In this document: positions 19,426-56,203 of the stretch, one piece after another
How the letters are laid out: the number at the start of each line of letters is the position of its first letter
How positions within the stretch are numbered: position 1 is the stretch's first letter
Origin: Ulota crispa
Taxonomy: Eukaryota; Streptophyta; Bryopsida; Orthotrichales; Orthotrichaceae
Direction of reading: 5' to 3'
Assembly (NCBI GenBank): GCA_963920765.1
Contig: OY987247.1
Coordinates: 22,788,471 to 22,852,470, forward strand
DNA: 64,000 nucleotides
Program-made: the position numbers and the translations under genes
The notes under the pieces: generated by a model
The model's database searches: none
What the model saw: only the letters and a program-made list of their open reading frames with translations
What the model was told of the DNA's origin: nothing

Positions 19426-19980
19426 TGTTGTAGCACAAGAAAGTATTTATCTTCTTGTTGGCATAAAAAATAGTTTAAAATACTAAGAAGATGACTTGTT
19501 CTTGTTCCACACAAATTTAGTTTGTAGATCCTCAAGATTAATCGTAATAGAGTGAAGAAATCCTATTTGTAATTTGCAATCACTCACAAACACACACACA
19601 AGGAAAAAGAATTAGAAGTTCTATAATCAACTGATCAGACTCCTAACTATGTCTTCCCCTTCTTCACAATCAAACCAAAATCCAAGAAGGAGTGTCCAAG
19701 CATTGTGGCTCTTCCAAATCCGGTTACAACATAAAATTTTGAGTAAAAGAAGTTTATCCTCTGTATTAGAGGGTTTTGCAATTTGATTAAGGAAGGCATC
19801 ATGAGGTCCTATCCTTCCAGAATTAATAGTGAATGAAGTATCACTAGCTAAATCAACAACAAAGAACACAAAGACAACAGGGTGCAATTACTCCCTTACA
19901 GTCAGTCTGGAAGTAGATCCAAACTAACAAGTCACACAAGGAACCCCTACAATCCCAAACTACTACAATGACAGACCTTT

Positions 19981-22900
19981 TGTGACAATTTAGAATTTAC
20001 TAAATATACATGTTTTTGAAAATTCAGGATAAGCCACTCCTTTCCAACAAAACTTTTTATTTTCTTAACCAAAAACAGAATAATGATTGAAATAAAGGTT
20101 TGGCATATTATAGAATCCGGAATTAGTTAAAACCGGTTAAGCAAGGACATTATGAGTCATCTCTAAATCTAGATATAAGTCCAAAATTTATCCTTGAATT
20201 TGGACGCAAGTAATTTTGATAGTGGCAAGGGTACTGAAGCAGTCTAGGAACTCTTAGAGACAATACCAAACTCAGTATTGGGATTGGCCCAGTACTCCAA
20301 CGGTTTCAGTCACATCCCTAACAATGTTTGGGATAAGGTGTTTGAACTCCTAATCATCACACCCCAATGGCCGCAATGGTCTAATCAACCGCTGAAATTA
20401 AAATTAGGAGGGAATGGCAGATGGGTTTCTCACTTACCTCCTTGCCCTCACTTTCTTTTTCTTACCTCCGAATAGCAACTAAGCAAGTTAGAGTGTTGTT
20501 AGAGATTAGACGCAAGATTGTACAAGTTATCTGTAGCTCCTGGATTGTAGCACTACCGAAACAATGGGGAAGGAGAAGGACTCTTTGCATATAACCCTCA
20601 GATTTGTAAGTTTGGGCATATCCAAGGAGCTCAGTAAGCGGCAGATATTGGTAGATGATTTGCAACGAATGGACTGTCAAGGATTGTTGGCAATGTTGTG
20701 GAGTTTGAAGGAGAAGGATATGGTCTGGGACGTGTTGGAGGAGCCGCAAAGCCAATGGGATTGCACAAAGCGAGCTTGACCGGATTTGTGGACGAAGGAT
20801 GACTGGTGCGCAGTTTACCATTTCAATCCTATTAGAGAGGGGTTGGCCTCCCAAAACAACAATTTTGTCACAGGTGAATTCACTTTTGGACTCCACTTGA
20901 AGAATAGTTATTCGATAGCGAATAGTAAGACTCCCCGCGAGAGGACGTTGCTTGAATTCCTAATCCCTATTCTACTTCCAAAACAACCCGTATATATAAC
21001 AGTCACCCTAGCCAGCACCATCTATGGATCATTGTTGGAGGACAAACCAATGAGTTGGGGTGTAGTAATCTAGGATCAAGTGTTGATAAAGATGATTAGA
21101 TTGTTAGGGAATACTAAGGCCTCCGGGCTTAGCCCCTTTATGTACCATTTGTATCATTCACTGGATTTGCTAGGGAAGAACAAGAAGATAGCCTATACGT
21201 CAGCCCTAGTAATACTAAAGCACAACCTTGTTCCGGAGGCAGAACCAGACGAGGAATCTGAGGAGGAAAGGGAGGAAGTCAAGAAGAAAGAGAAGAAAGA
21301 GGAGACCTCCAATCAAGAGAAGAAGAGGGGAGCCAAGGGGAAAAGTAAGGAGCCGGTTGAAGGAACCAAAGTGTCAGACAAATTGGACGTGAGGACCTCC
21401 AAGGTGATCCGACCCTTTGCTGAGGTTATGACTCAATTGGAGGTGGTGTAGTTGAGGGTTATGTTTGATCGGGAAATACTTGATAAAGTAAGTGCGCTGG
21501 TGGACATCTTTCACCTTTATGAAATATTTGATAATGTAAAGACTCTTCGCCAGCTCAAGATGGCAGGTGAAGTAGAGGTCAAGAGGTTATCCGGACAAGT
21601 GGCCGACCTACGGGCCTAATTGAGGTAGGATGCAGAAGAAAACAAGATGGCTACCAAGGCATTTTGCAACATTACCAGCCTTCGGAACTTTGTAATAATT
21701 TTGGGCGACATGGTAAATAAAGCCAGATTGTTTGATGCTGAAATCCTAAAGGAAGGACCACAGCTAGTGCCACAGCTGGTTGGGGTCTTAGAGGAGTATG
21801 CGAAGAAAATGGAGTTGGTCCTGCAGCAGATGAAGAACATCTTGAACGGCCTCCAAGTAAGATCAGAGGGAGGGGAAGGATCCACAAAAGCCAAAGGAGC
21901 TACCCCTGCCAAGAAAAGTCCTCCACATCTTTCACCTTGTTTTCCGAAACAAAAGGAAGCCAAAGAGGTGATAACCCCCGTTCTACCTGACTACCCTATA
22001 AGGTGGACTTTGGACCAGAAGAAGCGTTGACGCCCGGGGTCTCGGACCAGAATTCAAACCAGGGTGACGCCTAACAGCGGAGGCCCAGCAAAAGCACCAA
22101 GCCCAATGAAGAGGATGACCACAAAAAAGCAATGTAGAGAGTTGACTTCTTCGATCCCGATCAACCTAGATGACGAGCCATCCGCCTCTAGCACGGAAAG
22201 CAAGAGTGATTCCAGGGAGTTGCGAGAAGAATCCAGAGATTCCGATCCTAAAGGGGTGGCTTTGTCACGTAGAGGGAGGAAGGAGCCCAACCAAAAGAAA
22301 GGGAAGGCCGCAAAGGCAACTCAAGCTCCAACTGGCAAGAAGCAACTAATCTGGAAGGAGATACCAATTACTTCAAAGAAAAGGAAGGATGCCTAGTAGT
22401 ATTGTATTAATAATAACAGTAGTACTAGGATAAATAAAATAAAGTTTATTTACTTCAAGAAGTCAGAAGTAGTTGCTTCTTGATGAGATGAACCTAGACA
22501 CCGGATCTGGAATTTTAGGATTTGAGATCTGTTACCTTTTGAGCTTTGCAAAATAGAGGAGGACCAGCACTTTTTGGATCAGGGAATGAAACATGTCATT
22601 CCATGTTCAGTAGCTAACCAAGAAAATACCCTTTAGGATTTTCTTCATGATTTACTATTAGAGGTAGAATTGAACCTTGTTGCCTCGGGTGGTTTTATAT
22701 TTTTGATTCCCCTCAATGCAAGCAAAGTTTCTTATCAAAGAGCTCTGAATTGATCACTTGGTGTTTTTGTGCATGAGAATGCAAGTGTTAGGGAAGCGGA
22801 ATAAGAGTAACCCTTGGATTTTGTCCGATCTGATTTTTAGAAGCAAGTAACGGTGGTTGGAAAACTGTGTGTACTAGAGGACAATCTTTGTTTGGGCTTA

Positions 22901-23640
22901 TGATCTAAAGACTTTTGTGAGGAATAACCGCCTTTAGACTTGAGCGATTCGGATAGTGATCCCAAGACCTGCTAGTTGACGGCTTAAAAGGTTCTACTAT
23001 CATCAGGAATGCTTGTGAGCAAAGGAATAGAGATCCGCTAATTATCCAATTACCATCTTTGCAACTAGAATTGAGTAGAAGAGAGTCTATTGTTGTAGTA
23101 CTTTGGGGTTGTGGGGGTTTCCTATATGACTTGTCAGTCTAAGATCACTTTTGGATTGGCTGTGAGGAAGTAATTGCGCCTTTGTCATTGTGTTTTTGTC
23201 TTGTTTTGTTTAGTGACACTTCAGTCACTCTAAACTCTCAAGGGGTAGGAACTCATGCTGCCTTCCTCAATCAAACTGCAGAACCCTCTGATATAGAGGC
23301 TAAACTTTTGTTACTCGTAATTTATGTTGTAACCGGATTTGGAATAGGTGCTAGGATTGGACACTCCTTTCAGAAGTCCAAATTGTTGATGTAACTAGGA
23401 GGGTATAATCAAGGGGTCAAATCAATTGATTCAAGAACTTCCAGTTTCCTTCCCAAAAGTGTAGGTTTGTCTATGTGTTGTGATTACATGCAAATTATAA
23501 ATTGGATTTCTTCATCTTGTTTTGGTCACCTTTAGGATCTACGAACTAAATCCCTATGGAACAAAAACAAGTCATCTTTGTGGTATTTTAAGTTGCTTTT
23601 AATGCCAACAAGAGGATAAGTACTTTGTTGTGCTATCACA
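19981..23640 (+). mobile_element. Family X element X-B (3660 bp), nested in X-A
   Basis: Starts TGTGACAATTTAG and ends GTGCTATCACA. It is flanked by CCTTT (19976-19980) and CCCTT (23641-23645). The uninterrupted sister at about 53093 reads 'acaaacccttcctg', which supports an original CCCTT target with a C-to-T change on the left. The layout is a ~580-bp leader, a 610-codon reading frame (20564-22396), then a ~1.24-kb trailer. Leader and trailer do not resemble each other, so there are no internal LTRs. Only a weak TGTGA inverted repeat links the two ends. Confidence 0.93.
20564..22396 (+). pseudogene. Family X protein (610 codons, unknown function), six in-frame stops
   Basis: I do not recognise this protein. 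One unbroken reading frame starts at an ATG and runs 610 codons. Its only lesions are in-frame stops at 20777, 21071, 21449, 21617, 21626 and 22028; there is no frameshift. Visible regions are: a conserved N-terminal domain (about residues 1-200; 'GISKELSKR', 'SYSIANSKTPRER', then 'LGNTKAS' and 'HLYHSLDLL' near residues 180-205); a Glu/Lys-rich hinge (about 225-260); a coiled-coil-like region (about 285-430); and a basic Ser-rich tail ending SKKRKDA, possibly a nuclear signal. Sister copies at 24336-26171 and 53757-55635 share all of these. The stop at 20777 aligns with Arg, and that at 21449 with Gln, in the sister at 53757-55635. It is perhaps a retroelement accessory protein; this is inference. 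Confidence 0.8.
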
Positions 23641-24335
23641 CCCTTCTTGACCTAATTCCTTTTGCTAAAGCTAGTAACTAGATAATTATAGGATCCTATT
23701 CCTTTGCTCACAATCACTCCTGACTATAGTGGAACCTCTTCAACCGTCAGCAAGCATGCATTGGGATTGCTATCCGGATCCTGCCTAGCTTAAAGATGGC
23801 TATTCTTCACAAAAATCTCCAGATTATAAATCCAAACAAAAACTGCCCTCCAGTACACACAGTTTTTCAACCACCTTGAAATTGCTCCAGAAAATGGATC
23901 AAACAGGATCCGAGGGTTACTTCCCTCTTTCTTCTCTAACACTCACATTCCCATACACCCAGCACAGCAAGTGATCAGTTCAAAGTTCTGAGGTACAATT
24001 TCAAAACTTTGCTTGCATTACAAGAATCAAGAATACAAAATCACTTGAGGCAACCATTGTAGATCTACCTCTAATAGCTAATCACTAAAAGAATTCCTAG
24101 AGGCCTTTTACTGAAAAGCTAGTAACAAAAGAATGACAAGTGTCATTTCCTTGTCCAAAAAGTAGTGGTCCCCCCTCACTTTGCAAAATTCTGTAAATAG
24201 TGGATCTCAGATCCTATAAACTTGGATCCAAGCGTCTACATTCATTTAACGAGGAAGAAACTACCGTTTACTTTTGAGGTTAACAAACTTTATTCTATTT
24301 ACCTAGTTACTACAACCTCTTACTGCCACTATAGT

Positions 24336-26171
24336 ATTAGATGCTTTTCTTCTTCTTCCAGACTGTGGTTGCCTCCTTTTGCACTGGTTGCTTCTAGCTG
24401 TTGCTTGTTGACTTACCCTTGCCAAGAGCCAGTCCTCTCTTCTTCCTAGTTCCTTGCTCAACAAGCCATATAGCTTCCGATTCATTGTCACTAGATGAAT
24501 CCAAAATTTCCAATCCCCCTGATGAGTCTAAAGTCTCTTCATCACTTGCTGTTAGTTCTAAAAGAGAGTCATGCGGAAGGTTAATCTTGATTGGAGAGAT
24601 TGACTCTCTTGCACGCTTTGCTATCAACTTCCTCTTCACCGGGCTGGTCAACTTTGTTGCACCTTGACCTACCGATGTCGTGGGGTCCTAATGCTGGCCC
24701 TAGGTTCTAGTTGCAACCTTCTCTTCTCCAGTTCCCAAGTTGATTTTGCTGGGTAACTAAGCAAAAGTTGTAGTTTGCACTACCTCCTTTTCTTTTGGTG
24801 TGGTGGACTTCAGTGATTAGAAAGAAAGAGACTTCTAAGCGGATGTAACTTCCTTACCTTGCCCAAAACCTTCTACAATCTCTTGTTGCGGTCGAAGGCT
24901 AGTTAGGATGCTCCTCATCTCATGCAGCATCACCTCCATCTTGTCTCCATATTTGACCATGACACTCACCAATCTAACCTCCACTTGCGGTCTGCTTTCA
25001 AAACCTCAATGTCATAAAGCTTGGCCTTGTTCACCATGTTGCCAGGATTACCCACAAAATGCCTAAGCCGGGCAATCTTGATATTGGCTTTGCAAGTTGC
25101 TTTGTCCTCGTCGGTCTCTTCTTTTAGTGTGACCTGCAAGTCCCTCACCTGTTGGGTCAAACTATCCACCTCAACCTGCCATGAGGTTTTGAGCTTGAGA
25201 AATCTCTTTACTTCTACAAACAAAGCTTCTAGCAAAGCCGCTTCCACCAATTTATACAATTTTTGATTGTGCTCTTGTAGGGTACGCATCACCTGCTAGA
25301 CTACTCCTAGTTCTTTTATAATTCCGGTGATGGGGTCGCCTTTACACTTCTTGGAAACTACAGGAACAAAGTCCTCTGAGGGTTCTACACTCTCAGCAAG
25401 CTCCTTTCCCTTACCTCAGATCTCCCTTGTCACCTCTGCTATTGGTGACTCACCTTCTGATCCCTCCACTTTGTCTTCCAGTCCCGGTTCTGGTTCTGGA
25501 ATAATATTGTGTTGCAGCATGACCTTGGCCTTCTTATATTCCATGTGCTCCCTATCCCTCAAAAGTTCTAAAGAAGAATAGAGATGAAAAAAAAGACTAA
25601 TTTTGGATGGCTTAGTATTTCCTAGTGCTTGGAACAATTGGTCCACTAGATCTCTGATCACTACCCCCCATCTCACTTTCCACTCTCTTGACAGCAAACC
25701 AAGGATAATATTTGTGAAGGTGAGCTTAAGACAAGTTGGGCGTTTTGGAAGTTAAATAGGAACCAGGAATTCCAACACGCGCCTCTCCCTCTGGGTCCTG
25801 CAATTAGCAATAGAGTAGCCATTCTTTGGATGTGGAGTACCAAAGAACTTTTCCTTGTAGAATTTGGCGGACCGGCTTGCTAGTCCCTCATTTCTTGGAC
25901 CCAAACCATAAACCTTGATCCATACTTCCTTGGTCTAGCTCTCTAGACTAGCTCTCATAGTTCCATGCCACTCACTAGAGGGTTCATGTGATAGTTTCCT
26001 CACCATCTCCTTATCCCTCAGATTCCAAGGAACCTTGATCAAGCCATGGCATCCCATCTTCCTCAAATCCTCCTCCAGAAACTTTCTCTCAGCAGGATCT
26101 TTGGATATGCCCGGATAGATCAATCTAAGTGCTATGGCCGCTACCTCCTCTTCTTGTTCTGTCCTCACCAT
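24336..26171 (-). pseudogene. Family X protein copy in X-A (unknown function)
   Basis: This is the sister of the frame at 20564-22396, read on the minus strand from an ATG at 26171. Conserved pieces include 'YPGISKDPAERKFLEEDL' and 'MGCHGLIKVPWNLRDKEMV' near the N-terminus, 'GYSIANCRTQRERRVLEFL', 'LGNTKPSK' and 'HLYSSLELL'. A coiled coil follows with 'EEDKATCKANI'-like sequence ('DEDKATCKANIKIARL'), then a Ser/Asp-rich basic tail ending in a Lys cluster. Several in-frame stops (for example at 25934 and about 25755) and probable frame changes show decay. An extra upstream open stretch to 26291 contains a hydrophobic run that is not shared, so I start at 26171. Confidence 0.75.
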
Positions 26172-26730
26172 TTGTCTTGACAAACGAGGAATCAAAACTA
26201 CAAGATATTGACTTCCGTAGTAACGCACAGCAACCCTAATGCAAATAATCAAGAAGATAACCATAGAGAGCACAAGAGAAGATAAGATCATTAGAAGAAG
26301 AATAAGAAGATCAGTCCGTCCTCACCAAATTTCCCTTGATTACTTGATTCCATGATTATGGCCGTTAAGAATCATTGGACCTAATCATGACGTTTTAATT
26401 ATGTCCTTGATTTCCATTTAAGGGTCTGTTGGCATTATTTATCGTCCGATTGGCCTCTGGCTTGTCTCCGATACCCTTCCCTCTATTTGAAGCGGTTTAT
26501 TACGGACTTCAGGGGAAAATGCTGGCTTCTAATCTGAGTAAGATAGGAACTCAATTTTCTTTTCTTATCCTTTTTATCTATTCTAGAATTTCTATACTAC
26601 GCCAATCCTTTATTTCAACAATTCTTATGTTTCCGGCTAAGAAAACAAAAAGATTTTGCTAAAAACAACTAGCTTATCCAGATTATAACTTAATAATTTC
26701 TTTGTCTGAATTCTAGGTTGTCACAATCTT

Positions 26731-28839
26731 CAATAAATTAAGGTGTAATAATCTATCAATGATAGATGTGGTTAAAGTTCATTAGATGCACATATTCATG
26801 CAGAAAGATAGAATGTTTGAATGTACAAAATGATACATCATATATTTGACTATCTTTGCAAAAATGTTTACATTTTCATTTCTTTCAACTACATTGCTGT
26901 CTATTTTCCTCTTGATAAACTACAAGTATCTAATTGATAAACTACTAGATACATTAATTTTAAGTAAAAAACATGAAATCTTCAAACATGTTTGTATCTT
27001 CTATGGCAAAGAGTGAGATCAAATACACAAAAAATTTGTCTAGAGGTGGCGTACTTGCATAATAAGAGCATCTTTAATCTACTTAACAAATGAGCCCAAT
27101 AGTAAGCCATACTTTCTTAATAAACAATAGAGCACAAAAAAAACTAATTGTAATTTTACTACAAGGAGAATCTAGTTCAAATTGACACGATTATCACGAT
27201 TGTGTCAATTTGGTGTTAATTTGGTGTCAATTATAGGGAAGTTCATGTCAACTTTTCATACTGGTGTTACCCTTAGTGGACACAATTTTTGAGTGCAGCA
27301 TTGCACAAGCGTGTGCGTGCATTTTTGGTAATTACAAATATTTCCTTAAGTGCTGCATTCATGGTTGGCCTTATCTTACATTCCATCCCATTCTAGTACA
27401 TAGCTATACATATTGAAAGTACACCACATCTCAATAAATATCAACTTATGGGATTTTTAATTCATACAAAGACACAATTCAAATACTCTTACACTATCTA
27501 GTATTCCACAACATACTTTAACCAGAAGACATGCCCATATGATGACACCCATATGTGACTTGGAATAATATTAAAAGTATGTAGGGTAATGCCTCACTAC
27601 GCAAGAAATGCAACCAAATCAAGATAATGATGATAGAGAATTGTTCAAAGTAACATTGTGCCTCATTTTGCACCTTGCTAATGTCAGTTGCTTGTACTTT
27701 TCCAAGTTTGTGTCAACTTTATATTAATAATGTGAAAATATGGAAGTATTGTAATACTGGTATTTATTTCACAAAGCTCCAAATATGCAAATTACTGCAT
27801 CCAATAAAATAGTACATGCAAATTGGAAATTACCTTTCTCACACCAGATGACACAAAAATCACTTGGTTTTGTGCATCATCTCCACCAAAGTATAGCAAC
27901 CTGCTCCTTCATAATAAATTTTGATTATTCAATTTCTTAATAGTGGTAAAATACTTTTTTCCATTTACATGTATGAACTCATAATCCAACATATATTGTT
28001 AGATAGTCTGTAGGTTCTTTTTAAGTACGAGTTAAGAAGTTGAAACAACAATGCTTACTTTATAGCATTGCAACCACAAAATATAATCCAACTACTATTG
28101 CACTTGTAAGTGCAAATAATTTGAAATACAAATCTTTCCTTTCCAAACAAAATAATTTATTGCAGGTTCCTTAAAGAATAACTAGACTTCAAGATATAAC
28201 AAGTATGCTAAAATGGAAATTATCAATTTTGATTCAATTTTGTTTCTTGTGTTGTAACCACACTTGAGCAATTGCGTTTCTATTGTCACAAGGCTGTATG
28301 AAATACCCTTTACAGTAAACTCCATCCAACTTTGTTCGGCTCTTTGGTAGCTAAAAAGGGATTTCTAACTCATTGTTGAAGGCCTTAAAGAATACAAAAA
28401 CCTATATAAAACAGAAGCACATCAGTAGCTGACAACATGCTTGGATAGAAATCTTGAAAGACATTGTGGCCACAAAGAAATCAATCTTCACTAACAATTT
28501 TTTTTGGAATTTGCAACAATTCTTCAACACACTCTCCACTACTACGCTCTTACTTACAATTGTCTCTTTGAATACTTGGCAACTATTCAAAACTATTACA
28601 ATTTTAAGTGTCTTTGTGTTTCAATTTTATGAAGATTTACTCTAGTGCAATTGATTCTCATATTGCACAAGTTTTGGTAACCTTACCTTATTGAAGTTCA
28701 TAGTGTTGGGGCAGTTCAGAATCTTTCATGCTTGTGAGCCTATGGTTATTGCATACCCTTTTGTTTGCAACATATTTATCAGAAATTTTAGTACACCACC
28801 CTTCAAAGACAAATGGGTGATTGCAAGAAACACTTGTAC
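26731..28839. other. Gene-free AT-rich stretch
   Basis: No gene is supported. One perfect hairpin with 11-bp arms (CAAATTGACAC at 27178-27188 and its complement at 27202-27212) lies in a patch of repeated 'ttggtgt(t/c)aatt' words. Otherwise I see only low-complexity AT-rich sequence with short unconvincing open frames. Confidence 0.4.
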
Positions 28840-29600
28840 TATATTTTGTCCCCTTCACATCTTGCGAGTGCTTTTTGGCTTGTAACTTTTGCTCAAAAAG
28901 TTCTTTTAAGCTAAAATTTTAGAAGAAGGTACATGTCATAGTCATAAACCTTCTATAATTTTGGTCGTTTTTTTAAAATTATTTTATTATTTTTAAATAG
29001 CCTCCAAATAGGTGTCTACCTTAGCCATTCTGGGGGTTTTTAGTACTATTCTAGGTCCAAAAAAGCAAATCTCACGCCACAAATCAAGGAAGTTGTTCAT
29101 CATAGAGCATCACATGGACATCTAGAAGGGTTCTAGAAAATTGTGAATTTGCTGCCTTCCACATGCTCTCAAACTGGGCATCCTTTGGTCAATGATTGGA
29201 GAAAGAAAACAAACTTCCCCAAAAAAGCAATTCCATCAGTACAAGCGTCTTGAATAGAGAATAAATGACCATTTTTTGTTTTATTGTTTTGATTTTTTTT
29301 ACTATTCTCTAAAATTCAAAAAGGAAATTGTCTTTTTGTGGGTAATTTTTGTCCCTCTATTTTTGTGCATAACTTTTAGAATATATTTTTTCTAAGTTTG
29401 AATGTTCATAAGTATGTTATTTTAAGTGGTTTACAAATAATCTGTATTTTATTTTATTTAAAAAAAAATTCAAAAGCTTGCAATACTACCTAGTACTACA
29501 AGTTTTAAGGGTGTTTGAGACAAAACTACAAAGAGTTTCTTGCAACTATCCAAATACACATAACACATGTATTCCCACTGAGACACGGGAAGCAAATGTT
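28840..29600 (+). repeat. Dispersed repeat, copy 1 (pair with 41040-41900)
   Basis: It shares ordered blocks with 41040-41900: 'ttttgtcccctt', 'tttagaagaaggt', 'gggtttttagt', 'gccacaaat...ggaagttRttcatcat', 'caaag/caaac tggRcatcc', and 'ttcttgcaactaYYcaYat'. By eye similarity is roughly 70-80% with small indels. It has no coding capacity. The type of element is unknown. Confidence 0.65.
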
Positions 29601-35158: not shown

Positions 35159-35199
35159 TTGTCATATTTATAAAGATTCTGGTCAAATTTAAACAATTT

Positions 35200-36300: not shown

Positions 36301-36354
36301 CAAAATATGCAGCCAATTTTTGCGTGCTTCACCTTCTAATAAGTGTTGATCTTC

Positions 36355-38635: not shown

Positions 38636-39688
38636 TATCTTCAAAAAAAACAGTTGTACATTGAAAATGCAATTGCAGTACAACTAAAGAGTAAACCCCC
38701 AAGAACAACTACAAATTGAGTGAGGTCAAATTCAAACAACTAAGATTCAACTACAACACAACTACCCTATGATAACACATTTACATAACAATCATGAAGG
38801 GTAATAGCAGCACATCTAACAACACGTGAGAGTAAAAAAAATGAGGCAAATGCTTGATTCTTACAAAAGAAACCGTATCTCCAAATCCCATTGGAAGCAA
38901 TCACACAATAGTTGTTTTGTAGTAGCAAATCAGCCGTGTCCTACCCAAAAACAACTAATTTGCAACTTTTTTACAATTGCAATAAATTATCCTATTCACA
39001 CTAACAACTACAGAAGTAATTTCAGTCCCCTAAATCGCCCAAGGCTAGAAAGCGGGTCTTTGGCATTGTGCACTAGCATGGAAAAAATCAAAGAGATGGT
39101 GGTAAAAATAGGTAGAAAATGTGGAGTTGTTTTTCAATTAACTTGCAGTAGTAGAAGTCTAATAAAAACTAATAAGCAACTACAATACAACTTTAAACTC
39201 TAAAATGCATTCACAATAAACCCCAAACATAAATAGTTGAACAAAATTAACTGTCCAAAGCAAAGAAAGGGCAGCTTCAAATGCTAATAGAGCAAAAAAT
39301 AAAGAGCAATATGAAGAACAACTACTTCAGTCACTACAAAGAGAATGGTAACCCACTAGACTGAAGTCTGTCAGATTTTTGTCAAATCCTAGCTAGTTTG
39401 AAGACCTTGTATCAAACATGCCATTGACAGAACTTTGTCCACACGGTTGTCACAACTTTGTTCAGTCGTACACTACAACTCATAAATAAAATGTGTGGGT
39501 CAGGGCCACATGTGGAGCATTTTAACCTGAGGTTAAAAACTTACATCACTTTCACCTTGGCCTTTTAGTGCTTACTAAAGAAAACACTACCTTTACAAAA
39601 TTGTGTAGTTCAATTTTGTGATTACATCTGGCAAGCTAAGGTTGGGCTTTACCTTGTTGCCCTATCAAAATGTGGCATTTAGGATTAA
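38636..39688. other. CAAC motif cluster and unassigned sequence
   Basis: Positions 38640-39350 again contain many 'acaacta/caactaca' words. The rest, to the left TTAA of the next element, is unassigned. A 125-codon open frame at 38826-39203 is low-complexity in this motif context and I do not support it as a gene. Confidence 0.4.
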
Positions 39689-40600
39689 CTCCTAAAGGAC
39701 CATGGCCTTTATTTTGTCAAAAGACACTCAAAACTGCCACTTCTATGGCAAAGAGTAAAAAAGTTTGAAAATCAGTCTTTTTGCATATCTAACCGTAGGA
39801 TCTTGTACTAGACTACTATAAAAATGTGTCATACAAAACTCAAGAACCTTGACCGTACAAGTTGGAAGATATTTGCATTTCAAAAGTAAAAGACAACTTT
39901 TTTTGCACCTTGCTTGACTAGATTATTTAACTTTGAACTTTCTTAACTTAATTATTTTTGCATCATTGAATTTGGCATTCTATTTGGGCTTGGTGGGAAG
40001 TTGAGTTGGTAATCTTGGGAAAAAACAAAAAAAACAAAAAATAATTAATTTTCATTCTTAAAATAAAAATAAGCAAAAAAAGATATGAGATTGAACAAAA
40101 ACTTAAATTGCCAATAACCTTGCAATTGAATTGAAATGCAATGATCCCGATGGCAAGATTGTTCTAGAAAGCAAACTTCACCCTCTCCAACATTATCTTT
40201 TGAAAAAATGTTAAAATTACATTCAAAAATGAAGTTTATAAGTTATTTTTTCAAGAGGATCCTTGAATTGTTTGAGAAACAAGATTGTCCATCACTTTCT
40301 CATAACTAGTACAAATGGAATGAATAAAAGCTTTAGATGTAGACAAAGATATAATCTATGAGAAAAAAAATTCAAGTTTTTATAAGAATTTTCTTTGCTG
40401 CCGGGAGTCCCCAAATTTGTGCTTATTTGGGAATAACTTTTGCTCCCTAGCATCAAATGGAATAAAATTTAGATGCCCATCTAGATCTTTGAATTCCCCA
40501 TCTTCAATAAAAGTTTCAAAAATCATGGAAAGTAGTTTGGCCATAAGTACATGCCCAAAATCCCATTTGTTCGTTGAATAAACAGTTAGTCTTTTAGGGG
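39689..40600. mobile_element. TTAA-type non-autonomous element, copy Y2 (912 bp)
   Basis: It is nearly identical to 14476-15389, with about twenty differences by eye. Ends are TTAA|CTCCTAAAGGAC and GTCTTTTAGGGG|TTAA, so both flanks are TTAA (39685-39688 and 40601-40604). The terminal inverted repeat is about 12 bp with two mismatches. It has no transposase. The intact flanks make this the better reference copy. Confidence 0.82.
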
Positions 40601-41039
40601 TTAATAAACAGTTGAACGAGCTAAGCAACAAAATATAAAGAAATGCTTTTTTGTTTTCAAGGGTGATGACTTGTCCTACTTGGACTTTGAAATCAGCCGT
40701 CCAATCATCAAACATGTGTATGGCTTGCATATTCCTTGAGTCTTCTTTTTAGTTGTTTGGAACTAAAAACCAAATGCTTTGGATCACCATATTAGGTAAA
40801 TTAGGAAAAAAGGTATAATTTGGTACTTTTAGACCTGCTTCAAAAGTTTGAGGTGATCTCCTCAAACTAAGGTCAAGAATATTTTTTTGCACATGCATCC
40901 TCACTTGAGAGGAGGGGTTTGCGAGGGAAAATTGTTTAGTGGCCCAAACTAAATCTTATACCTTCAAATCTAAATTTTAGGCTTTGGAGGGGAAAACAAA
41001 GTGGGACACCCTTTTTTCAAAATTTACCTAGTATGGTGT

Positions 41040-45631: not shown

Positions 45632-45657
45632 TTCTACTTCTCCGCTTTGGCTGCCAT

Positions 45658-46025: not shown

Positions 46026-46033
46026 GTTGCCAT

Positions 46034-48769
46034 ACTCCATCCTATTGAAAGCAATAGATGCATGGTTACATACATTAATTCTGGAATCACAATTTGTGAG
46101 TTGAAGAGTACTTTTGGTCGTTGACAACACAATGTGACAACATGCGGCTCTAGCCTTGCCGGGAGACCTTTGTGATTCTCTCCATTCCAATAACTTCTCA
46201 TGCCCCATTGCAGCATTAGCTGGCAAAGCCATTTCTTGCGATAACAATATGAATTTCCATGAACAATAGTACATGCATGTACCATCCTAGATTTAGAACT
46301 AAATATTCTACTTAAACAATCTAGGGTAAGAAGGTAGAAATAAATAGAAAATGATTCAAAATACATGCTATGTCAATATTACAAATGAGGAAGACATGTG
46401 TTTGTATTGGAATTCATTTATCTTTACAGCCTAAGCTCTACCAAAATGCCACTAGTATACCACTACACTTACCATGTTAGCCTACTATCACAATGACGCT
46501 CCTTAATGCAATGCACGATATGGTAATGATATGCCTACCTTGCTCAACAAGGAAGGTGCATTTGTGAAGGAACCTGTAATTTCCATTCCATTGAGAATCT
46601 AAGGTTCATAATATAATACATACATGTGGCCTTCATATTTAATTTATGCAACTCAAATCTTTAGAACTGTGGACTAAAGCCCTTCACTTAGGGATACTCC
46701 TTAGTCTCTGACGCAATTTCATTGATATTCTTAATATTTGAAACTTTTAGTACTTGATGTTGTTCATCTTGTCAGTGGTATGCAAAGATGCTCCACATGA
46801 CACATACACAATGGCATATTATGTCTAGAACTATTGTATTTTTAATAAGACATTTAGGAGTTTAAAAAAATCATATAGTTCATGCTTGAACATGCTTATT
46901 GAAATCAGCTTTGTACTACAATTCATCAACCTCTTCACCTCAAACATTTTGCATGTGATTTCAGCAAATACTATAGACAATCATTAATCAATATAATTTG
47001 GATGATAGAAAACAAGCAAACTCTATTGTGCAAAGATTGGAATGAACACAAAAAGCTACAAGAGCTTTAGTAGCTTTTCCTAACCCATGTGTTCATGTTA
47101 TGACATATCTTTGCTATGATAATTATACAGAGACATCTCTACACTTTTTAGTAGTTATTGGCTCATTAACTTTGGTGATTTTAACTCAACACAATTTAGC
47201 CTTTTGGTATGAACAGAGACTTATCTTCATAAGAAATTGACCATTGAATATTAAGGGCTGCCATTTGTTGCCATTTGCTAAAGTGAAGGTGGACCTATAT
47301 CTGTCCACAACTAACAAGTGCATTGGATATAGAGGAATTCAAATGTAATGAACATTCATACGCACTTTCAAATCCCATGCAAGTGTTGGTTTAAGGTCAA
47401 TTTTTTAACCAAGAAACCTCCAATTTATGCTCCGATTTTTCTTGAATCCAAATTTCAGTGATGTCACCTAAATCTAGCCACATTTGATGACGCTGTCCCA
47501 TCAACTCTGTTCTTTGTGTCAAGTGTATTCTTCCAACTCCATAAGCTTTTTTATTTGAAGAATATCATACACAATGAGTATGCTACTGTAGCAAAGACTC
47601 ACATAAACACACAGAAGCGTTGTGCATTGACTTCAAGTTTCCCTTTCATACATGTTCATATGGACTAATTTCTTTGCATAATTTCCACATTTTTGGCACG
47701 GCTGAACTTCATCTCTTCATTTTGAAGGAACTGGCATTGTAACATGTGAGCACTTTTACATTATAGTACAATTCTCTTTCCTAAACACAAAAACAAGTAA
47801 AACCACACATGAAAGCAAGATAAACATCAAACAAGAAAAATTGCATTTGATTGTAGCAGCAAACATTGCAAAAAATACTATAACCATAGAAATTTAGATT
47901 GACGCATGCAACAGCGCTCACTTGTTAGCAAGGTCTCTCCAACAACAACTGTTGACAGGAATGCATGCCCTCTAGGGAAGAAGACTACAACTCCCAAAAG
48001 TGGCCCGGGAGCCACTCCTTCATAGGAACTGTTCACAGTGACTCACCGTTGTCCTTCCTAAATTCAGAACCAAAGATAGCTTTTATCTTTCTACTAATTT
48101 TAACCGCAGTTAGAAATTACCGCGCTATCCAAATTAGTAGTTGCTCCATGTAAAACCCATGGTCAATTTGCATGACATTCTGTAAAACCCCCCACAAAGA
48201 GCGCCATCCCGCACAATTTGGCTTCCCATGATTTCCACCCTGCTTGCTATTGTCTCAATGAACATTCCCAAAGCCAAAACCTGCGCTGCTCATGCAATTC
48301 ATATGAATAGAAAAAGCAAAATTAGGTCTAAATGAGGAGCAGGAAAATGTTCCATTGCATTGCAAAATTCACTTCAAACAGTACAAAGTTCTCAATAGAT
48401 GCATTTCAAATTTTGAAGAACAGTACTTGCTCGGCCAAATCTATACTTGCCGTTGAGAATGTTTGAATGAGGAGCCCATGTGAGTGCTCAAATCTCCCCC
48501 TCTCAAGAAGTCAGCGCAAACACAACTGGGTTTTAATGAAACTGAAAAACAAGCTAAACGTGTAATAATAGCAAGAGGATAGGTTTGTTTGTAGATTTCG
48601 GATGCCTTCTAAGCAATGGATATTTCCTAACAAGTCTACAACATACAATAGTGAACAAGGAAGTAATTGTCCAAGAAATTGGATGTTGAATTTAAAGTGA
48701 ATCAATCAAGACAAGTGTCAAAGATCACACCTCATCGTGGGGGCCCACATACTCTACCGCATGATTGTA
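46034..48769. other. Mostly gene-free stretch; possible 5' coding remnant near 46034-46274 (minus)
   Basis: A minus-strand open segment ending at the hAT insertion site reads 'MALPANAAMGHEKLLEWRES' and is protein-like. It may be the 5' part of the decayed region to its left, but this is weak. Beyond 46300 I see only AT-rich sequence with no convincing gene or repeat pair. Confidence 0.3.
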
Positions 48770-51700
48770 AATGGCCTCTGTCCTCTTTGAAATACAATGT
48801 CAAGGGTTGTTACTAGGGTTGCGCTTGACTTGACTTTAGGAACAAATAATCACAACATGTTAAGGGGGTTAGGCGTCCAACCTCCCCTAATAAACTGGCC
48901 TATCTTTTGGGTATGTGACAAATAATCATAAGATAACCCAAGTGTTGGTGAGGTAACCAAAAGTGAAGTCACTCTCCTCTTAACCAAATCAAAAGAGTAT
49001 TAGCCTAGGCAAGGGTGCCAATGGCAGGTTTGCTATCCCATAAGCCAAATGATGAAGTAGTTGAAAATAACAGAGAGGCAATAATCTCAAAGATGGTTTA
49101 GAGATCAATATTTTAACTTCCTTTCTTAATGACTTGAGTGGAAATATCCTACCTAGCAAGAAGGTTGCTGAGGAATATCGAGACTTGTGCCCCTTTCCTT
49201 CTCTTGTCTTTTCTTTCTTCTAGCTTCTAGTTTGGCTTTGGGAGCCAAATTAGAGAGGAGGTCTGGAGGGCAGGCTTGGGCTAATAGAACCAAGGGTCCA
49301 GAGAGAACCGAGTATGGGCGGGTCTGGAGCCAGGCGCGAGTGGCCTCTTTGCTGGCGTTGTGGCTGCGTTGATGTCTGCCGTGAGCTGTTGGCCAAGTGC
49401 CGTGACTAGATTGATTGGCTGAGCGCGAGAGATGCTGCGGCTGTGAGCAGCTCCTTGAGAGTAAACTAGAGCTTAGACTAGTCGATAGCTGAGCTTGTGA
49501 GGGAGGCTTAGGGCCGTGAGGGCAATTCTTGATGAGCAAGCTGTGAAGCTAGACTGATCGGTTGAGCTTGTGAGAGAATGCTAAGGCTGCGAGGGCAATT
49601 CCTTGATGAGCAATCTGGGAAGCTAGATTGATCGGCTAAGCACGTGAGAGAATGCTAAGGGCCGTGAGGGAATTCTTGATGAGCGCTGCAAGCTTAGACT
49701 ATTGGATAGCTAGTCCTAAGGGGATGCTATGGCCTTGACGGCAATGCTTGATGAGCGAGCTGTGAGCTAGACCAATTGGCTAAGCTCAGGAGGATGCTAC
49801 GGCTGTGAGGGCGATTCTCAATGAGAAAGCTATGGCTAGACTGATTAATAGCTGGGCCGTGAGGGGAGCTAATGGGCCTTGAGGGCAATTCTCGATGAGC
49901 ACTGTGAAGCTAGACTAATTGATTGAGCTTGTGAGAGAATTCTAAGGGTTGTGAAGGCAATTTCTTTGTGAGCAAGCTAGGCTAGACTGATCGATAGCTG
50001 GGCGCGTGAGGGGAGCTAAAGGGTTGTGGGCAATTCTTAAAATGCAAGCTATGAGCTAGATTGATAGTCTACTTGAGAGAATAATAAGGCTGCGAGGGCA
50101 ATTCTCGATGAGCGTTGGAGCTAGACTGATTGATAGCTAAGCTTGTGGGGATGCTACAGCTGCAAGGACAATTTCTTGGTGAGCAAGCTATGAGGCTAGA
50201 CTGATCGGTTGAGCTTGTGAGAAAATGCTAAGGGCCGTGAGGGCAATTTTTGATGAGCGAGCTACGCTAAATTGATTGATAGCTGGGCTTGTGAGGGGAG
50301 CTCAGGGGCTGTGAGGACAATTCTGGATGAGCGAGTTGTGAGCTAGACTGATTGATGTCTAAGCTTGTAAAGGAGGCTAAGGGTTATGGGCAATTCTCGA
50401 TGAGCAAGCTGTGAAGCTAGACTGATCGGCTGAGCTTGTCAGAGAATGCTACGGCTTAAAGGGCAATGCTTGATGAGTGAGCTGGAGCTAGGCTGATGGC
50501 TGAGCTTGTGAGGAACGCTACGGCTGCAAGGGCAACTCTTGATGAGCAAGCTGTGAAGCTAGACTGATGGCTGAGCTTGTGAGGAACGCTACGGCTGCAA
50601 GGGCAACTCTTGATGAGCAAGCTGTGAAGCTAGACTGATGGATACCTGGGCCACAAGGGAATGCTAAGGGCCATGGGCGATTCTTGATGAGTGAGCTGGA
50701 GCTAGACTGATGGCTGAGCTTGTGAGAGAATGCTAAGGGCAATGAGGGAATTCTCGATGAGCAAGCTAGGCTAGACTAATGGATACCTGGGTCGTGAGGA
50801 GATGCTACGCTGTGAGGGCAATTCTCAACAAGCGAGCTGTGAGCTTGGCTAAGGGCAATGGTCACACGCTTGAGCAACTTTGAGAGCAAGGGCAGGCCTC
50901 TGGCTCAAGGAATTTGGTGAGCAAGGTGACTTCTCAGAGAGTTCCAAAGGAATCAAGAAAGCTGGCCAAAGCTAAGCTCAAAGGATAATGGTAGAGCTGC
51001 TAGGAGGGCTTTTTAGGGTAAGGTGCAAAGTTCTGATACGAGAATGATACTTGAAACTATGGAGACAAGTGTCACTCTAATGACCAAAAATCAACAGGAA
51101 CCACAAGTACTAACTAGGACTTCTAGGAAGCATGGAAAAGCGACATCGCCAATTGTAATCCAACTTCCTAGAGATTAGTAAGACGCCTAATGCTTGATAC
51201 TCCAATTTCTAACTAGACCTAGACCACACAACTTTAGGGAAAGGAATGAGACAATGACCCAAGTCGGGAAGTAGTGCTAAGAACAAGTGGAGGTGGTCTA
51301 AAAACATAAAGGAAGATGAAAAGAGTGGGGTTACAAGTAATGAATGATGACAAGTGTAGTTTTTGGGAGGAGGTGGACCTTCCTTTATACCTTTGAGGGA
51401 GGACACCTCGGCCCTCTATCTAGGAGGTCCATAGATCCCTTGAAATCTACCTAAAATCTAAAAAAAACTCAAAGTGGATGAAATCTAGATGAATTCGCTA
51501 TAACTTTTGGAGCGTAGCTCCAAACAACAAACAAATGGTGGCATTGGATTCTTTGGACCCAAAGTAGCCAGTTTTGGTTATTTACACTCCCAATTCCAAG
51601 CTACAAAGCGTCAGGAATCTTGTATGCAGGGTTAAGGGTGGATGGATGAAAAACCCAGAATTGGCAATTCATCCCAAATTAAGAAATTGACTTCTCGAGG

Positions 51701-52060
51701 TCTTCCAATGTTGTCGAGGGAACCAGGAAACACTCCTTGCTTCCGTCAATGGGGCTTCAAATGGATGATATCTTGAAACTAGATGTTGCGTGCCTTCTTG
51801 AAACTAGATGGATGTCGTCGTTAGAGGCTTGGCCAATATCAAAACGACTTGAAACTTAGGGGATCTTTGTAAATCCTTGAGAAACTCTTCCTTGAATTTT
51901 GGTGGCATTTTACTGCCATTTTTCAACCTCCTTTCACCGGGGTTGACTGGTAGCCTAGCAGGATTAACTGTTTGGAATCACGCTCTCTAAAAAACGGAGG
52001 GTCTTGGGAACCTTGGGTATAGATGCACCAAAGTGATAACGTGATGTGAACTAGGTGATG
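48770..52060. other. ~3.3 kb unit of unknown type containing a minisatellite
   Basis: Composition changes near 48770 and again near 52060, being more G-rich than the neighbours. Sequence left of the minisatellite ('gttaagggggttagg') and right of it ('aattaggttagcgg') has no clear inverted or direct terminal match. No reverse transcriptase or other domain is seen. It could be a non-autonomous retrotransposon. Confidence 0.3.
49400..50880. repeat. ~73-bp minisatellite, about 20 units
   Basis: Degenerate units contain, in order, 'gctgagcttgtgag', 'aatgctaaggctgtgaggg', 'caattcttgatgagc' and 'aagctgtgaagctagactga'. Two adjacent units (about 50502-50642) are essentially identical, pointing to recent unequal exchange. 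Unit length varies by a few bases, not multiples of three throughout, so it is not evolving as coding sequence. Confidence 0.88.
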
Positions 52061-52540
52061 TGGCCCTTGGCCATGACTTAGCTAATCTACTTCTAAACTA
52101 ACCCTCTCTAATTAGGTTAGCGGGGACTTTTGAAGGGGATCCCAAGCCCCATGTATGTGTGTCACTCAAACTAACTAAAAACTATTAATTCTCACTAATT
52201 CACTTCTAATGACTTACCAAGTGGAATAGGGTATAAAGCGTACCGCTAACCATTTGGTTTAACTAATCTAAATCAACATAAATGGCTATTCCACTTGTAT
52301 TAATGTAATTTCAAAGCTAAATAAAACAAAAAATGAATTCAAGACTTCTGGTGCTGAATCTAGAACTCACAACCTATAATTGTTCACTACTTGAAGTGGC
52401 AATATTGGTGGTGTCCATGTCCATTGTGGAAAGAAGAAACCAACAGAGCTTTGACCTTAGTAAAGACTAAGGGGGACAATGTACATGGTGATAGAAACTG
52501 AAGGAATAGGTTAGTGAGGCACATATCCCTTGTTTGTAAT

Positions 52541-55500
52541 TGTGATAGCACAGGAAAATACTTGTCATCCTGTTGGCATTTAAAAACAACTTAAAACACC
52601 AAGTAGATGACTTGTATTTGTTCCATAGAGATTTAATTTGTAGATCCTTAAGGTTGTCTGGTACAGGATGAAGAAATTCTATAGGTAATTTGCAAATAGA
52701 CACCAAACACACACACAAGGAGAAAAGGTAATCAGAAGATCCTTAGTCAATCAACGAAACTCCTAACTATCTTTCCTTTCTTTACTAACGTTATAGACTC
52801 CAAGAAGGAGTGGCCAATCCGTGTACTTCTTCTAGATTTGGACGTCAAACACACAACAGTAACAGAAGTTTAGCCTTTATATCAGAGGGTTCTGTGATTG
52901 GAGATTAAAGAAGGCCACGTGAAATCCTAGCCCTTAGTTGGCTATAGTGAGTGATGTATGACTAGACAAAACAACAACAAAGAACACAAAAACAATAAGA
53001 TGCAGTTACTCCCTCACAACCAATCTAAAAGTGATTTCAAACAAACAGGTTGCCCTAGAAACCCCTACAACCCCAACATACTACAATGACAAACCCTTCC
53101 TGACCTAATTTCTGATGCAATGATGGTAATTGGATAATTAAAGGATCCTTGCTTCTTTGCTCCCAATCACTCCTAGTGATAGTGGAACCTCTCAATCGTC
53201 AACTAGCATGCATTGGGATTGCTATCCGGACGCACCCAACTTGAGATTGGCTATCCCTCACAAGAGTATCTAGATTGAAAACCCAAATAGAATCTGCCCC
53301 TTAGTACACACAGTTTGCTAAACACCTTCCTATTGGCTCCAAAAATCAGATTAGACAGGATCTAGGGCCACTTCTCTCTCCTCTTCTTCCAACACTCACA
53401 TTCCCATACACAACATCCTAAGTTATCAATTCAAAATGCAGAGATGAAAAACTTTGCTTGCATTAGGAGAATTAGAGATACAAAATGAACCAAGGCACTA
53501 ACCTCAACCATGCCTCTAATAGCTAATCATTGAGAAACTAAGAAGTCTCCTCTTGAAAAGCTGTGGTCTTGGGAATGATAGATGTCATTCCTATCACCAA
53601 AAGTAGTGGTCCCTCCCCATTAGCCACAAAGTTCCAGAATTAGCGGATCTGAGATCCTATAATCTCGGATCCTGATGTCTGAACATATTGAACTAGGAAG
53701 TAACTGCTATTTACTTCTAGTGTTTAGTAAACTTCTTTCTATTTATCCTAGTTACTTTATTTATTACTATATCCTAGTAACGAGGCGGTCTTCCTCTTCT
53801 TCTTCTGAGCGATGGATATAGCCTTTCGCAATGGCAATTTTTGGCTCCCGCTTGTGCCTTTACCTTTGGCAAGATTCTTATCTTTCCTCCTCCGAGTACT
53901 TTGAGCGGCAAGCCTAACTACTTTTGAATCAAAGTCATCGAATGAATCCAAACTCTCCAATTTGTTCAAGGTCTTTGAAATCTCTCCATCACTTGCTGTT
54001 GCCTTAGTCGGAGAGTTGTCCAAAATGTCAATCTTGACCGCAAATCCCTCGCTCTTGTTTGGAGAAAACAACTCTCTTGCAAGCTTAACAGTTGTCTTTC
54101 TCTTCATCGGACTGGACACGAGTTTCAAAGCTTGATCCTCTGGTGTAGTGGGATCCAGGATCTGATCCTAGGATCCAAGTGTTGACTTCTCCACTTTGGC
54201 ACCCAAATAGATCTTGCTAGGTAGACAACCAGACATTGGGGTCGTCACTCTATCCTTCTCTTTCAAAGTAGTCGGCTTTGGTGACCTTACAATAGGGGAC
54301 TTCCGGGTGCGTGTTGTCTCTTGACTTTGCCCGGATCCTCTACCTGCACTCTGTCGGGCTTTCATACCTGCTAGGATGGTCCTCATCTCCATCAACATCA
54401 CCTCCATCGTCTCTCCATACTCCACCACGACTGAAACTACTTTAGCCCCAACTTGCAATTTGACCTTCAAGGCTTCTGTCTCATAGAGCTTTGCTTTGGT
54501 CACCATGTCGCCCAGATTCCCAATGAAGCGCATGAGCTTAGCAATCTCTATGTTGGCCTTGCAAGCCGCCTTGTCTCCCTCACTCTCATCCTTCAACTTG
54601 CCCTGCAAGTCCTTCACCTGCCTGGACAACTTGCCCACCTCCAATTGCAGCGAGGTTTTGAGTTCCATCAAACTCTTCACCTCGGCAATCTTGTCATTTG
54701 GTGTAGTCACCCCTAGGAGCTTGTGCATGTTCTGGTTATGCTCCTGGTGGATGCGTATCACCCGTTGGACCACCTTCAGCTCCTTCACAATTCCAAGAAT
54801 AAGATCCGCCTTTAGCCTCTTTGTTCCTACTTGTTCTGGAACCTCTGAAGATTGAGCGGTTTCCTTCCCCTTATCTTGGACTTTCCTGGTCACCTTGATG
54901 TCTTGTGCCTCCTCATCCAAGAATTCCTCCTCTTCTTCCTCTTCCAGTTCCAGTTCAAGAGTGATGATATTCAGCCTCATCACCTCTGCCTTCTTCCACT
55001 TGAGGCTCTCTTTGTCTCTCAGCAATTCATGGTAAGAGTAGAGATGTAAGAGAAAAGAAGAAAGCTTGGAAGGTTTGGTGTTCCCTAACCCTTTGACTAG
55101 TCTATCCATGAGTTTTCCAATTACTACCCCCGGTTCACCAGAAACTCTCTTGATAGCGCATTGAAAATGGTGTTGGCAAAGATGAGTGTGAGATAAGTAG
55201 CACGCTCAAGCAGCAGGAATCGGGATCATGAACTCTAGGACTCTCCTCTCTCTCCAAATTTTGCAATCCAAGACTGAGTGACTATTTTTAGAATGGGCTG
55301 CGTTAAGAAACTTCCCCTTTGCGTACTTGTCATTTTGGGTAGCTAATCCGTTGCCCTTCCGGCCAAACCCGTAAACCTCACTCCAAACTTTGGGAGTCTA
55401 ACTGTCTGGTCTAGCCCTAAGGGTATTGTGCCACTCGCTAGACGGTTTCTTCATCAACTCCCTCACAATCTCCTCATCCCTGAGATTCCCGGGTACCCGG

Positions 55501-56198
55501 ATCTCCATGGCATTCCATCTTCTTCAAATTTTGCTCTAAGTGCTCCCTCTCCGTAGGATCCTAGCGTATGCCCGGATGGATTGACCAAAAGGGTTTTGTT
55601 GTTGGAACCTTGTCCTGTCCAATCCTCCCCATCATTCCTGACACTCCGGATACTAAAGAATAGCTACAACTTGGTCTATCACAAAGCCAAACTCACACAA
55701 GCTCTCAAGAGGGGAAGGAAGAGCAAGAACAACATAGAAGAAAAGTGAGAGAGAAGAATAAGAGAGGAAGGGGAAGGATAAGATTGTTTTGGCCTATCCC
55801 AACATAATATTGGTCCGGGCCTATGATTAGTGATGTTATAAACTGTTGCGCCTAATCATGAGGGCATTAAATTGTTTTAAAAATCCCTTCAAAGGTTCCG
55901 ATAGGTGTAATTACTGCAGGGTGTACCTTTAACCACCCTTGGTACTGTTCACACTGCTTAGGAACCTTTGATTTTGGATTCTGGCGTTAAGTTCTGGCTG
56001 ACAATCCGGTTAAGACCAAAACCAAAAGGTTCATTCTTAACCAGTTTATCTAATCTGGAACGGCTATAATACACCAACCATATTCCTCTCTAAAATTTCA
56101 TGTTTCCGCTTCAAAAAATTAATAATTTTTAACAAAAGAGGTTAGGTAATATCTATAAAATAGGAATAGCTCTCTTTCTTGATTTTTAGGTTGTCACA
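52541..56198 (-). mobile_element. Family X element X-C (3658 bp, minus)
   Basis: On the minus strand it begins TGTGACAACCTAAAAATC at 56198 and ends CTGTGCTATCACA at 52541. The 5-bp target duplication GTAAT is perfect (52536-52540 and 56199-56203). It is an uninterrupted copy colinear with the two nested copies at 19426-26725. The leader is about 560 bp, the coding part 53757-55635, and the trailer about 1.2 kb. No internal LTR is visible. Confidence 0.93.
53757..55635 (-). pseudogene. Family X protein copy in X-C (unknown function; longest open part 313 codons)
   Basis: Reading from an ATG near 55635, the N-terminal part shows one frameshift (about 55500) and a few stops. It keeps 'VPGNLRDEEIVRELMKKPSS', 'EVYGFGRKGNGLATQ' and 'WRERRVLEFM'. 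From 55109 a 313-codon frame is open. It holds 'LGNTKPSKLS', a Glu-rich run ('ELELEEEEEEEF'), a long coiled coil ('LQLEVGKLSRQVKDLQGKL') and 'GDKAACKANIEIAKL'. One TAG at 54168-54170 separates it from the in-frame basic tail (54128-53757), which ends near 'IAQKKKRK'. Coiled-coil and tail lengths match the sister copies. Confidence 0.8.
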
Positions 56199-56203
56199 GT
56201 AAT

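Follow-up and report, generated by a model that had tools for sequence, protein, structure and literature searches.

What kind of mobile DNA carries TG...CA ends and 5-bp target duplications, the signature of a retroviral-type integrase, without a pair of long terminal repeats (LTRs) and without a polymerase? The question is raised by three units of about 3.65 kb, here called family X (copies X-A, X-B and X-C), in the moss Ulota crispa, within a window of 64,000 nucleotides (the whole stretch analysed) at C6:22788471-22852470, C6 being contig OY987247.1 of assembly GCA_963920765.1 (274.8 Mb, 157 contigs). A preliminary description of the window had offered two readings, giant solo LTRs that carry their own reading frame, or a non-LTR element mobilised by an integrase. 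Our analysis upheld what the two have in common, a discrete unit bearing a reading frame and joined to its target in integrase fashion, while the choice between them is not settled.

The three copies lie where the preliminary description had placed them, X-B (3660 bp) being nested in opposite orientation within X-A (3640 bp, 19426-19980 plus 23641-26725) and X-C (3658 bp) standing apart. The 5-bp duplications were also recovered, exact for X-A (ATCTT/ATCTT) and X-C (GTAAT/GTAAT) and agreeing in 4 of 5 bases for X-B (CCTTT/CCCTT). The features of the three copies are as follows.

19421 to 19425, no strand: target duplication ATCTT, left of X-A
19426 to 19980, + strand: X-A left part with the TGTTGTAGCACA end, conserved noncoding
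19976 to 19980, no strand: target duplication CCTTT, left of X-B, within X-A
19981 to 23640, - strand: X-B, second subfamily, in X-A; its + strand reads TGTGACAA...TATCACA
20537 to 22396, + strand: X-B gene remains, several stop-free pieces, 32% identity, colinear with P0001 residues 1-567
22811 to 23320, no strand: X-B share of the conserved noncoding block
23641 to 23645, no strand: target duplication CCCTT, right of X-B
23641 to 26725, + strand: X-A right part, terminus TTGTCACA
24394 to 26321, - strand: X-A gene remains, interrupted by stops
26726 to 26730, no strand: target duplication ATCTT, right of X-A
52536 to 52540, no strand: target duplication GTAAT, left of X-C
52541 to 56198, + strand: X-C, main subfamily, TGTGATAGCACA...TTGTCACA
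52865 to 53370, no strand: X-C conserved noncoding block, for the most part about 0.7-0.85 identical per 100 bp between subfamilies
53757 to 54167, - strand: X-C gene, 3' portion, encoding 136 aa with a basic tail
54168 to 55205, - strand: X-C gene, main stretch without stops, 345 aa, acidic, coiled-coil-like
56199 to 56203, no strand: target duplication GTAAT, right of X-C

The TATCACA end that had been ascribed, as such or in a close variant, to all three copies is found on the + strand in X-B only; X-A and X-C differ, reading TGTTGTAG or TGTGATAG...TTGTCACA on the + strand, as X-B does on the - strand. The first 600 bp or so had been called unrelated, which is wrong, since in BLAST the alignment of X-A with X-C extends from about base 6 to 1226 (74%) and that of X-B with X-C over 1 kb (72%). 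The last 1.2 kb or so, described in the same way, do align poorly as DNA among the three window copies, yet they encode a colinear protein. X-A, X-B and X-C are three subfamilies of one family. Pfam was blank for the frames tested, in agreement with the earlier statement that the family has no reverse transcriptase (RT), protease or integrase.

The results showed that the unit recurs throughout the genome with the same ends. The 27-bp left end was found at 187 places with at most 3 mismatches, in comparison to 0 for a reversed-pattern control, so that irreproducible ends, which would have spoken against a discrete unit, were not what was found. The X-C query gave 48 matches (best 40 of 304 candidates), and at least 26 relatives, not counting X-C itself, match it nearly end to end (from base 17 or earlier to base 3637 or later) at 73-86% identity. 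A query from the L043 subfamily, which is as numerous as that of X-C, gave 44 matches (best 40 of 328 candidates), most of them over about the full 3.0-kb query at 80-86%, the X-B query 43 (best 40 of 69 candidates), and the right part of X-A 44 (best 40 of 299 candidates), few of them near full length. After merging the matches to these four queries and to the left end, at least 166 places were mapped. Complete copies are near constant in length, about 3.63-3.68 kb, across several subfamilies, and among 30 loci (labelled L and a number) the identity to the nearest neighbour does not exceed 88%, except in the pairs L021/L022 and L026/L033. Family X is large and old. Its distribution is uneven, C11 (6.3 Mb) having 44 of the 166 mapped places in comparison to 3.8 expected and the last 4.3 Mb of C6 having 38 in comparison to 2.6 expected, shares which are approximate in that the match lists favour the best-matching copies. 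Altogether 82 of the 166 lie on C11 and in C6:18.6-22.9 Mb, about 4% of the genome, away from the presumed centromeres; these X-rich regions may recombine little or belong to a sex chromosome. Two X copies near contig starts, C9:37508-41140 and C10:141326 onwards, have the same flanking bases.

The ends fit TGTNR...YNACA, with the subfamily variants TGTGA, TGTCA, TGTTG and TGTCG, and their inverted identity is limited to about 5-7 bp. The TGTNR pattern is reported for Gypsy LTRs in the pertinent part of PMC2836005, and family X has both the TG...CA ends of this pattern and the 5-bp flanking duplication by which a Ty3/gypsy-type LTR is recognised. The preliminary description had proposed a tabulation of the 5-bp flanks, and we tabulated them for 37 copies, namely 28 of the 30 loci with ends set by script (L036 and L037, each with one end misplaced, being left out), X-A, X-B, and seven copies paired by eye, a selection of seven that is not exhaustive. 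The target-site duplication (TSD) was exact in 9 of the 37 and had at most one mismatch in 23, in comparison to 0.08 and 0.67 expected from mismatched copies; with the copies paired by eye removed, 6 of 30 were exact and 16 of 30 within one mismatch. Duplication lengths of 3, 4, 6, 7 and 8 did not stand out among the 37 copies. In L021, whose script-set right end was off, GAGGA was seen by eye on both sides.

Two loci further display their sites before insertion. L024 and L029 have inserted into one host repeat, in opposite orientations and with about 250 bp between them. At the L029 site, which reads ACCGT-unit-ATCGT, a single ATTGT is found in L024, and at the L024 site, which reads TTTGG-unit-TTGGG, a single TTTGG is found in L029, each locus thus providing the empty site of the other; the unit was therefore absent before insertion, and 5 bp were doubled on insertion. 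The surrounding host repeat extends over at least 2.6 kb, its two copies being 84-86% alike. Integrase-type joining, which had been proposed from the TG/CA ends and 5-bp duplications of the window copies, is strongly supported by the TSD statistics together with the two empty sites.

Not all duplications match. In a set of 26 copies, which omits L020, L021, L025 and L033 for their truncated or misplaced right ends, nine (L010, L017, L018, L022, L026, L027, L032, L034 and L038) had two or fewer matching TSD bases, more than mutation alone should yield, and exchange between copies is the likely cause. Among 100 left flanks, eight pairs agreed in 7 or 8 of 8 bases, within what column shuffles gave (mean 3.7, maximum 9); in two of these pairs all bases agree, as if the regions had been duplicated, while in one other, L014/L040, the flanks diverge further out.

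Exchange between copies is best seen in three near-identical pairs, L021/L022 (99.8%), L026/L033 (99.6%) and L048/L038 (99.8%), all of them inverted, head-to-head and close together, at 8.8, 3.5 and 21 kb, respectively. In L021/L022 differences are seen at 13, 30 and 69, the next one lying no earlier than 3391; none occurs between 105 and 3380 in L026/L033 or between 4 and 3524 in L048/L038, and the outer bases differ. Recent transposition was rejected as the source of these pairs, the pattern being that of gene conversion, of which family X offers clear cases between inverted repeats. The left duplication of L048, GAATA, is the right duplication of L038, and the right duplication of L026, ACGTG, resembles the left duplication of L033, ATGTG, as would result from gene conversion and inversion, through a crossover of inverted copies. 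The reciprocal half of the exchange was not seen in either pair, the right end of L033 being missing and the left end of L038 being unlike the right end of L048. L021/L022 shows conversion only, because L021 keeps its own duplication. A fourth converted pair is likely at C7:12870615/12875453, from equal match scores. The head-to-head arrangement of these pairs suggested a large composite element with X as its 3.65-kb inverted repeats. This was set aside, since the spacers differ and the outer flanks have, by eye, no common duplication, although a register shift of one base would make L021/L022 fit. Among neighbouring copies at gaps of 3.7-20 kb, ten pairs were inverted and three direct, the direct ones being, weakly, fewer than expected.

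Each unit has one gene of about 600 codons, retained as the family spread and read in the direction TGTGACAA...TATCACA, and the longest stop-free frame among the 30 loci has 568 codons (L021 and L022). The protein remains colinear at 63% identity in X-C, 46-53% in X-A, 36-43% in L042, 36-38% in L041, 33-38% in L043, and 32% in X-B. The differences by codon position were about 0.45-0.48, 0.38 and 0.61 between subfamilies, 0.31, 0.29 and 0.49 for X-A, and 0.20, 0.16 and 0.27 inside the main subfamily, and the same measure was flat in the conserved noncoding block (0.25-0.35 between subfamilies, 0.18-0.19 inside the main one). The noncoding stretch before the gene served as a second, imperfect control, with about 50-150 triplets per pair, being flat inside the main subfamily (0.25-0.27) and uneven between subfamilies (0.37-0.55, position 2 lowest). 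We take the gene to have been formerly under purifying selection, because the protein is colinear at 32-38% identity, which is the stronger argument, and because of the codon-position asymmetry. Most genes are now broken: L021 and L022 are the sole full-length stop-free matches, and some partial ones are stop-free (85 matches, best 77 of 498 candidates). By eye, TAG is the commonest stop in the broken genes, as C-to-T decay at CAG would yield. The protein had no convincing match in Pfam, PHROGs, NCBIfam or the PDB, matches below the cut-off in Pfam and the PDB (Glyco_hydro_70, Y1_Tnp and others) being dismissed as chance. The AlphaFold models were poor, with a mean pLDDT (predicted local distance difference test) of 53.6 and 53.0, and helical almost throughout; the protein has an acidic linker, a likely coiled coil and a basic tail.

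The best conserved part between subfamilies is the left 900 bp or so, mostly at 0.7-0.85 identity per 100 bp, with lower values at 101-300 and 801-900 in some subfamilies, in comparison to 0.4-0.7 in the gene region. The conserved block has no codon pattern, and X-C gave no Rfam match up to E = 1, to ribozymes of the kind borne by retrozymes or to any other family. RNA structure as the cause of the conservation was not supported by folds or partner shuffles. In the consensus fold of the gene strand 94.2% of cells were paired in comparison to 93.2% with shuffled partners, and 13 pairs were changed on both sides in comparison to 11.8 expected, 194 of 500 shuffles reaching 13; folds of single copies had z values of -0.23, 0.36 and -0.06 on the gene strand and 0.88 on the other. 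The covariation score and the percentage paired did beat all 500 shuffles, an excess that related sequences can produce without structure, and sliding the partners lowered nearly all measures. This end may have a regulatory or recognition role, or may have been kept alike by exchange of that part between subfamilies.

Turning to what family X may be, we lean, with somewhat better than even confidence, toward the solo LTRs, with a gene inside the LTR, of a lost retrotransposon lineage. Family X would then be a very large (3.65 kb) LTR-like unit of Ty3/gypsy type whose complete elements are gone from the genome. In gene direction, the variable first 2.5 kb or so, including the gene, would correspond to U3, and the conserved 1 kb or so at the other end to the promoter, R and U5; the full element would once have been LTR-gag-pol-LTR, and crossing-over between the long LTRs would have deleted every interior. 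Some retroviruses carry a gene in the LTR, and the product of the X gene may likewise have served as an accessory protein. The LTR reading is preferred because the ends are of LTR type without terminal inverted repeats (TIRs), because the two ends are unequally conserved, and because copies exchange sequence. With no longer TIRs in 9 of 9 copies, an LTR is a better match than a DNA transposon, the unequal conservation may resemble that of U3 and R-U5, and, recombination between X copies being a fact, direct LTR pairs would be expected to collapse. For P. patens, a high ratio of solo to full-length elements and little gene conversion are described in the relevant part of PMC7251063.

A number of results weigh against solo LTRs. 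No full element was found among the listed or opened copies of this genome, in which a direct pair around a primer-binding site (PBS), polypurine tract (PPT) and gag-pol was likewise missing, and, for want of an LTR pair, family X cannot yet be placed firmly among the LTR retrotransposons. The 60 flanks of the 30 loci (1.5 kb each, the adjoining 10 bp omitted) have no common interior; the match between the flanks of L024 and L029 is the host repeat, and in no further pair does the match reach the unit in both loci. Flanks at 100 of the 127 left ends and at 52 right-end matches (control 4) had no recurrent sequence beyond two duplicated regions, the copies with common flanks being C9:41140 with C10:141326 and C6:12967197 with 13042253. 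Only three direct neighbours closer than 20 kb occur among the at least 166 places, each mixing two subfamilies (same-strand matches closer than 3.7 kb were merged in this count), and in a list of 124 places three of the five direct pairs closer than 30 kb join different subfamilies. A fourth, C6:21718410/21725273, has 77% identity, outer flanks that do not resemble each other, and no long pol-like frame in the space between; the check covered these four of the five, C6:21089259/21091362 (2.1 kb apart) being the fifth. TNNCACA followed by a PBS for initiator methionine tRNA was matched 7 times, at 6 sites, and no mapped X end was among them. Among the best 150 of 629 rve candidates, 2 lay within 15 kb of the 167 X places in comparison to 2.7 expected, and none within 5 kb of a mapped left end. 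For RT_RNaseH, 5 of the 150 listed matches lay within 15 kb in comparison to 2.7 expected, and the nearest two, within 5 kb, are nested insertions, one inside the X copy at C10:141326, which contains an insertion with an RT_RNaseH frame, and the other a frame beside L020. By its motif we take the latter frame to be a Ty3-type polymerase, with polymerase sequence on both sides of X, so that X sits inside that older element. X copies paired around a pol interior with a PBS after TATCACA, which had been expected to settle the matter in favour of LTRs, were thus absent from the copies and lists examined. These missing pairs do not decide between a solo LTR and a lone unit, because the copies are old and solo formation could be complete. 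Within the unit, terminal direct repeats and long inverted repeats were found in none of 9 copies, the two 700-bp ends matching no better than shuffles, and very short LTRs or TIRs of its own were rejected on the same 9 copies, all at shuffle level.

A real, though lesser, possibility is that X is a single-gene element standing on its own, at no time with an interior and similar to Revolver of the Triticeae, with an integrase-type enzyme acting in trans and its own protein participating. All opened copies are lone units, and the complete ones have their near constant length over several subfamilies, the gene is colinear down to 32-38% protein identity with its codon-position asymmetry, L020 stands alone within the putative polymerase frame, and L024 and L029 are lone insertions with reciprocal empty sites. 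Revolver itself, in the part of PMC2851119 that describes it, is 2.9-3.0 kb long, with incomplete 20-bp TIRs starting with TGT and one gene without known transposase; the same source has it sharing sequence with LARD LTRs, so that the analogy also leans to LTRs. No enzyme or mechanism has been identified for such an element, and Ginger-type DNA transposons, as described in part of PMC2836005, have TIRs of 40-270 bp, in contrast to X, which has none. That X forms a separate single-gene class, at no time with LTRs or an interior, in which bare 3.65-kb DNA would be moved by retroviral-type strand transfer, its own protein being needed and the conserved 1-kb end serving as recognition or replication signal, we regard as a possibility of slightly lower probability. 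That X is a DNA transposon of Ginger2/TDD type, non-autonomous and with its TIRs reduced to the terminal bases, is quite improbable: the TGTNR ends and the 5-bp TSD are as given for TDD-4 and TDD-5 in part of PMC2836005, whereas 9 of 9 X copies are without TIR, the hosts named in that part are not plants, and no Ginger-like transposase turned up, having been looked for through the rve search only. Segmental duplication of an immobile host gene region is hardly credible; it would suit the few copies with common flanks (the C9/C10 and C6 pairs above), and is ruled out for the bulk of the copies examined by the TSD statistics, the empty sites, sharp ends in 187 places, and X-B lying inside X-A.

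Each of C1-C11 has, by eye, one main rve (copia-like) cluster with frames of up to 1377 codons, for example at C5:25.0-25.14 Mb, C7:21.88-22.0 Mb and C11:2.63-2.70 Mb. These clusters, which point to a moss, resemble the RLC5 clusters of Physcomitrium, which are thought to mark moss centromeres according to part of PMC7466625. In the window, a 920-bp direct repeat (14472-15391 and 39685-40602, 25 kb apart, 97.8% identity) may stem from a recent duplication, unless its two copies are an LTR pair. Diverged-repeat blocks at 1-5500 and 15400-17700 are related, at about 60-86%, and a tandem repeat array at 49399-50852 lies left of X-C. The frames at 10333-13060, of which the piece 10333-11052 had no Pfam match, are presumably a decayed Helitron with helicase, and those at 57976-61225 presumably a CACTA-type transposon.

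Among known systems, TRIM, TR-GAG and other non-autonomous LTR elements have LTR-type ends and LTR pairs with PBS and PPT; X is similar in its LTR-type ends and in being non-autonomous, and differs in that no LTR pair, PBS or PPT was found for it, an LTR pair of its own inside the unit being absent at shuffle level in 9 of 9 copies. The Copia element RLC5 of Physcomitrium is clustered and has LTRs that also occur solo (PMC7466625, in part); no relation to X was seen, and X is not confined to the rve clusters of this genome. Ginger2/TDD elements share the TGTNR ends and a 4-5-bp TSD with X. Their TIRs, of about 50-180 bp, and their integrase-like transposase (PMC2836005, in part) have no counterpart in X, the X frames tested against Pfam encoding no such transposase. 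The LTRs of the barley LARD elements (large retrotransposon derivatives), as cited in part of PMC2851119, measure about 5 kb, also occur solo, and have no pol, and they differ in being noncoding and within an LTR element, while X has a gene and no pair was found. The same source, a 2010 review, states in the part concerned that a gene inside a plant LTR had never been identified, and if family X consists of solo LTRs, it would be such a case. X also satisfies the description of Revolver as an element of about 3 kb with a single gene and no RT or known transposase, a likeness by description alone; both are dispersed, with ends starting with TGT, and Revolver has partial LTR similarity (PMC2851119, in part). 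Revolver differs in its incomplete 20-bp TIRs and its transcribed, spliced gene of 139 aa, and X in that its ends are inverted over only about 5-7 bp, its stop-free frame reaches 568 codons, its 5-bp TSDs are exact, and its copies are mostly broken. Should X prove to stand alone, Revolver-like elements would comprise a second kind, raising the question of how an integrase-type enzyme moves DNA without LTRs.

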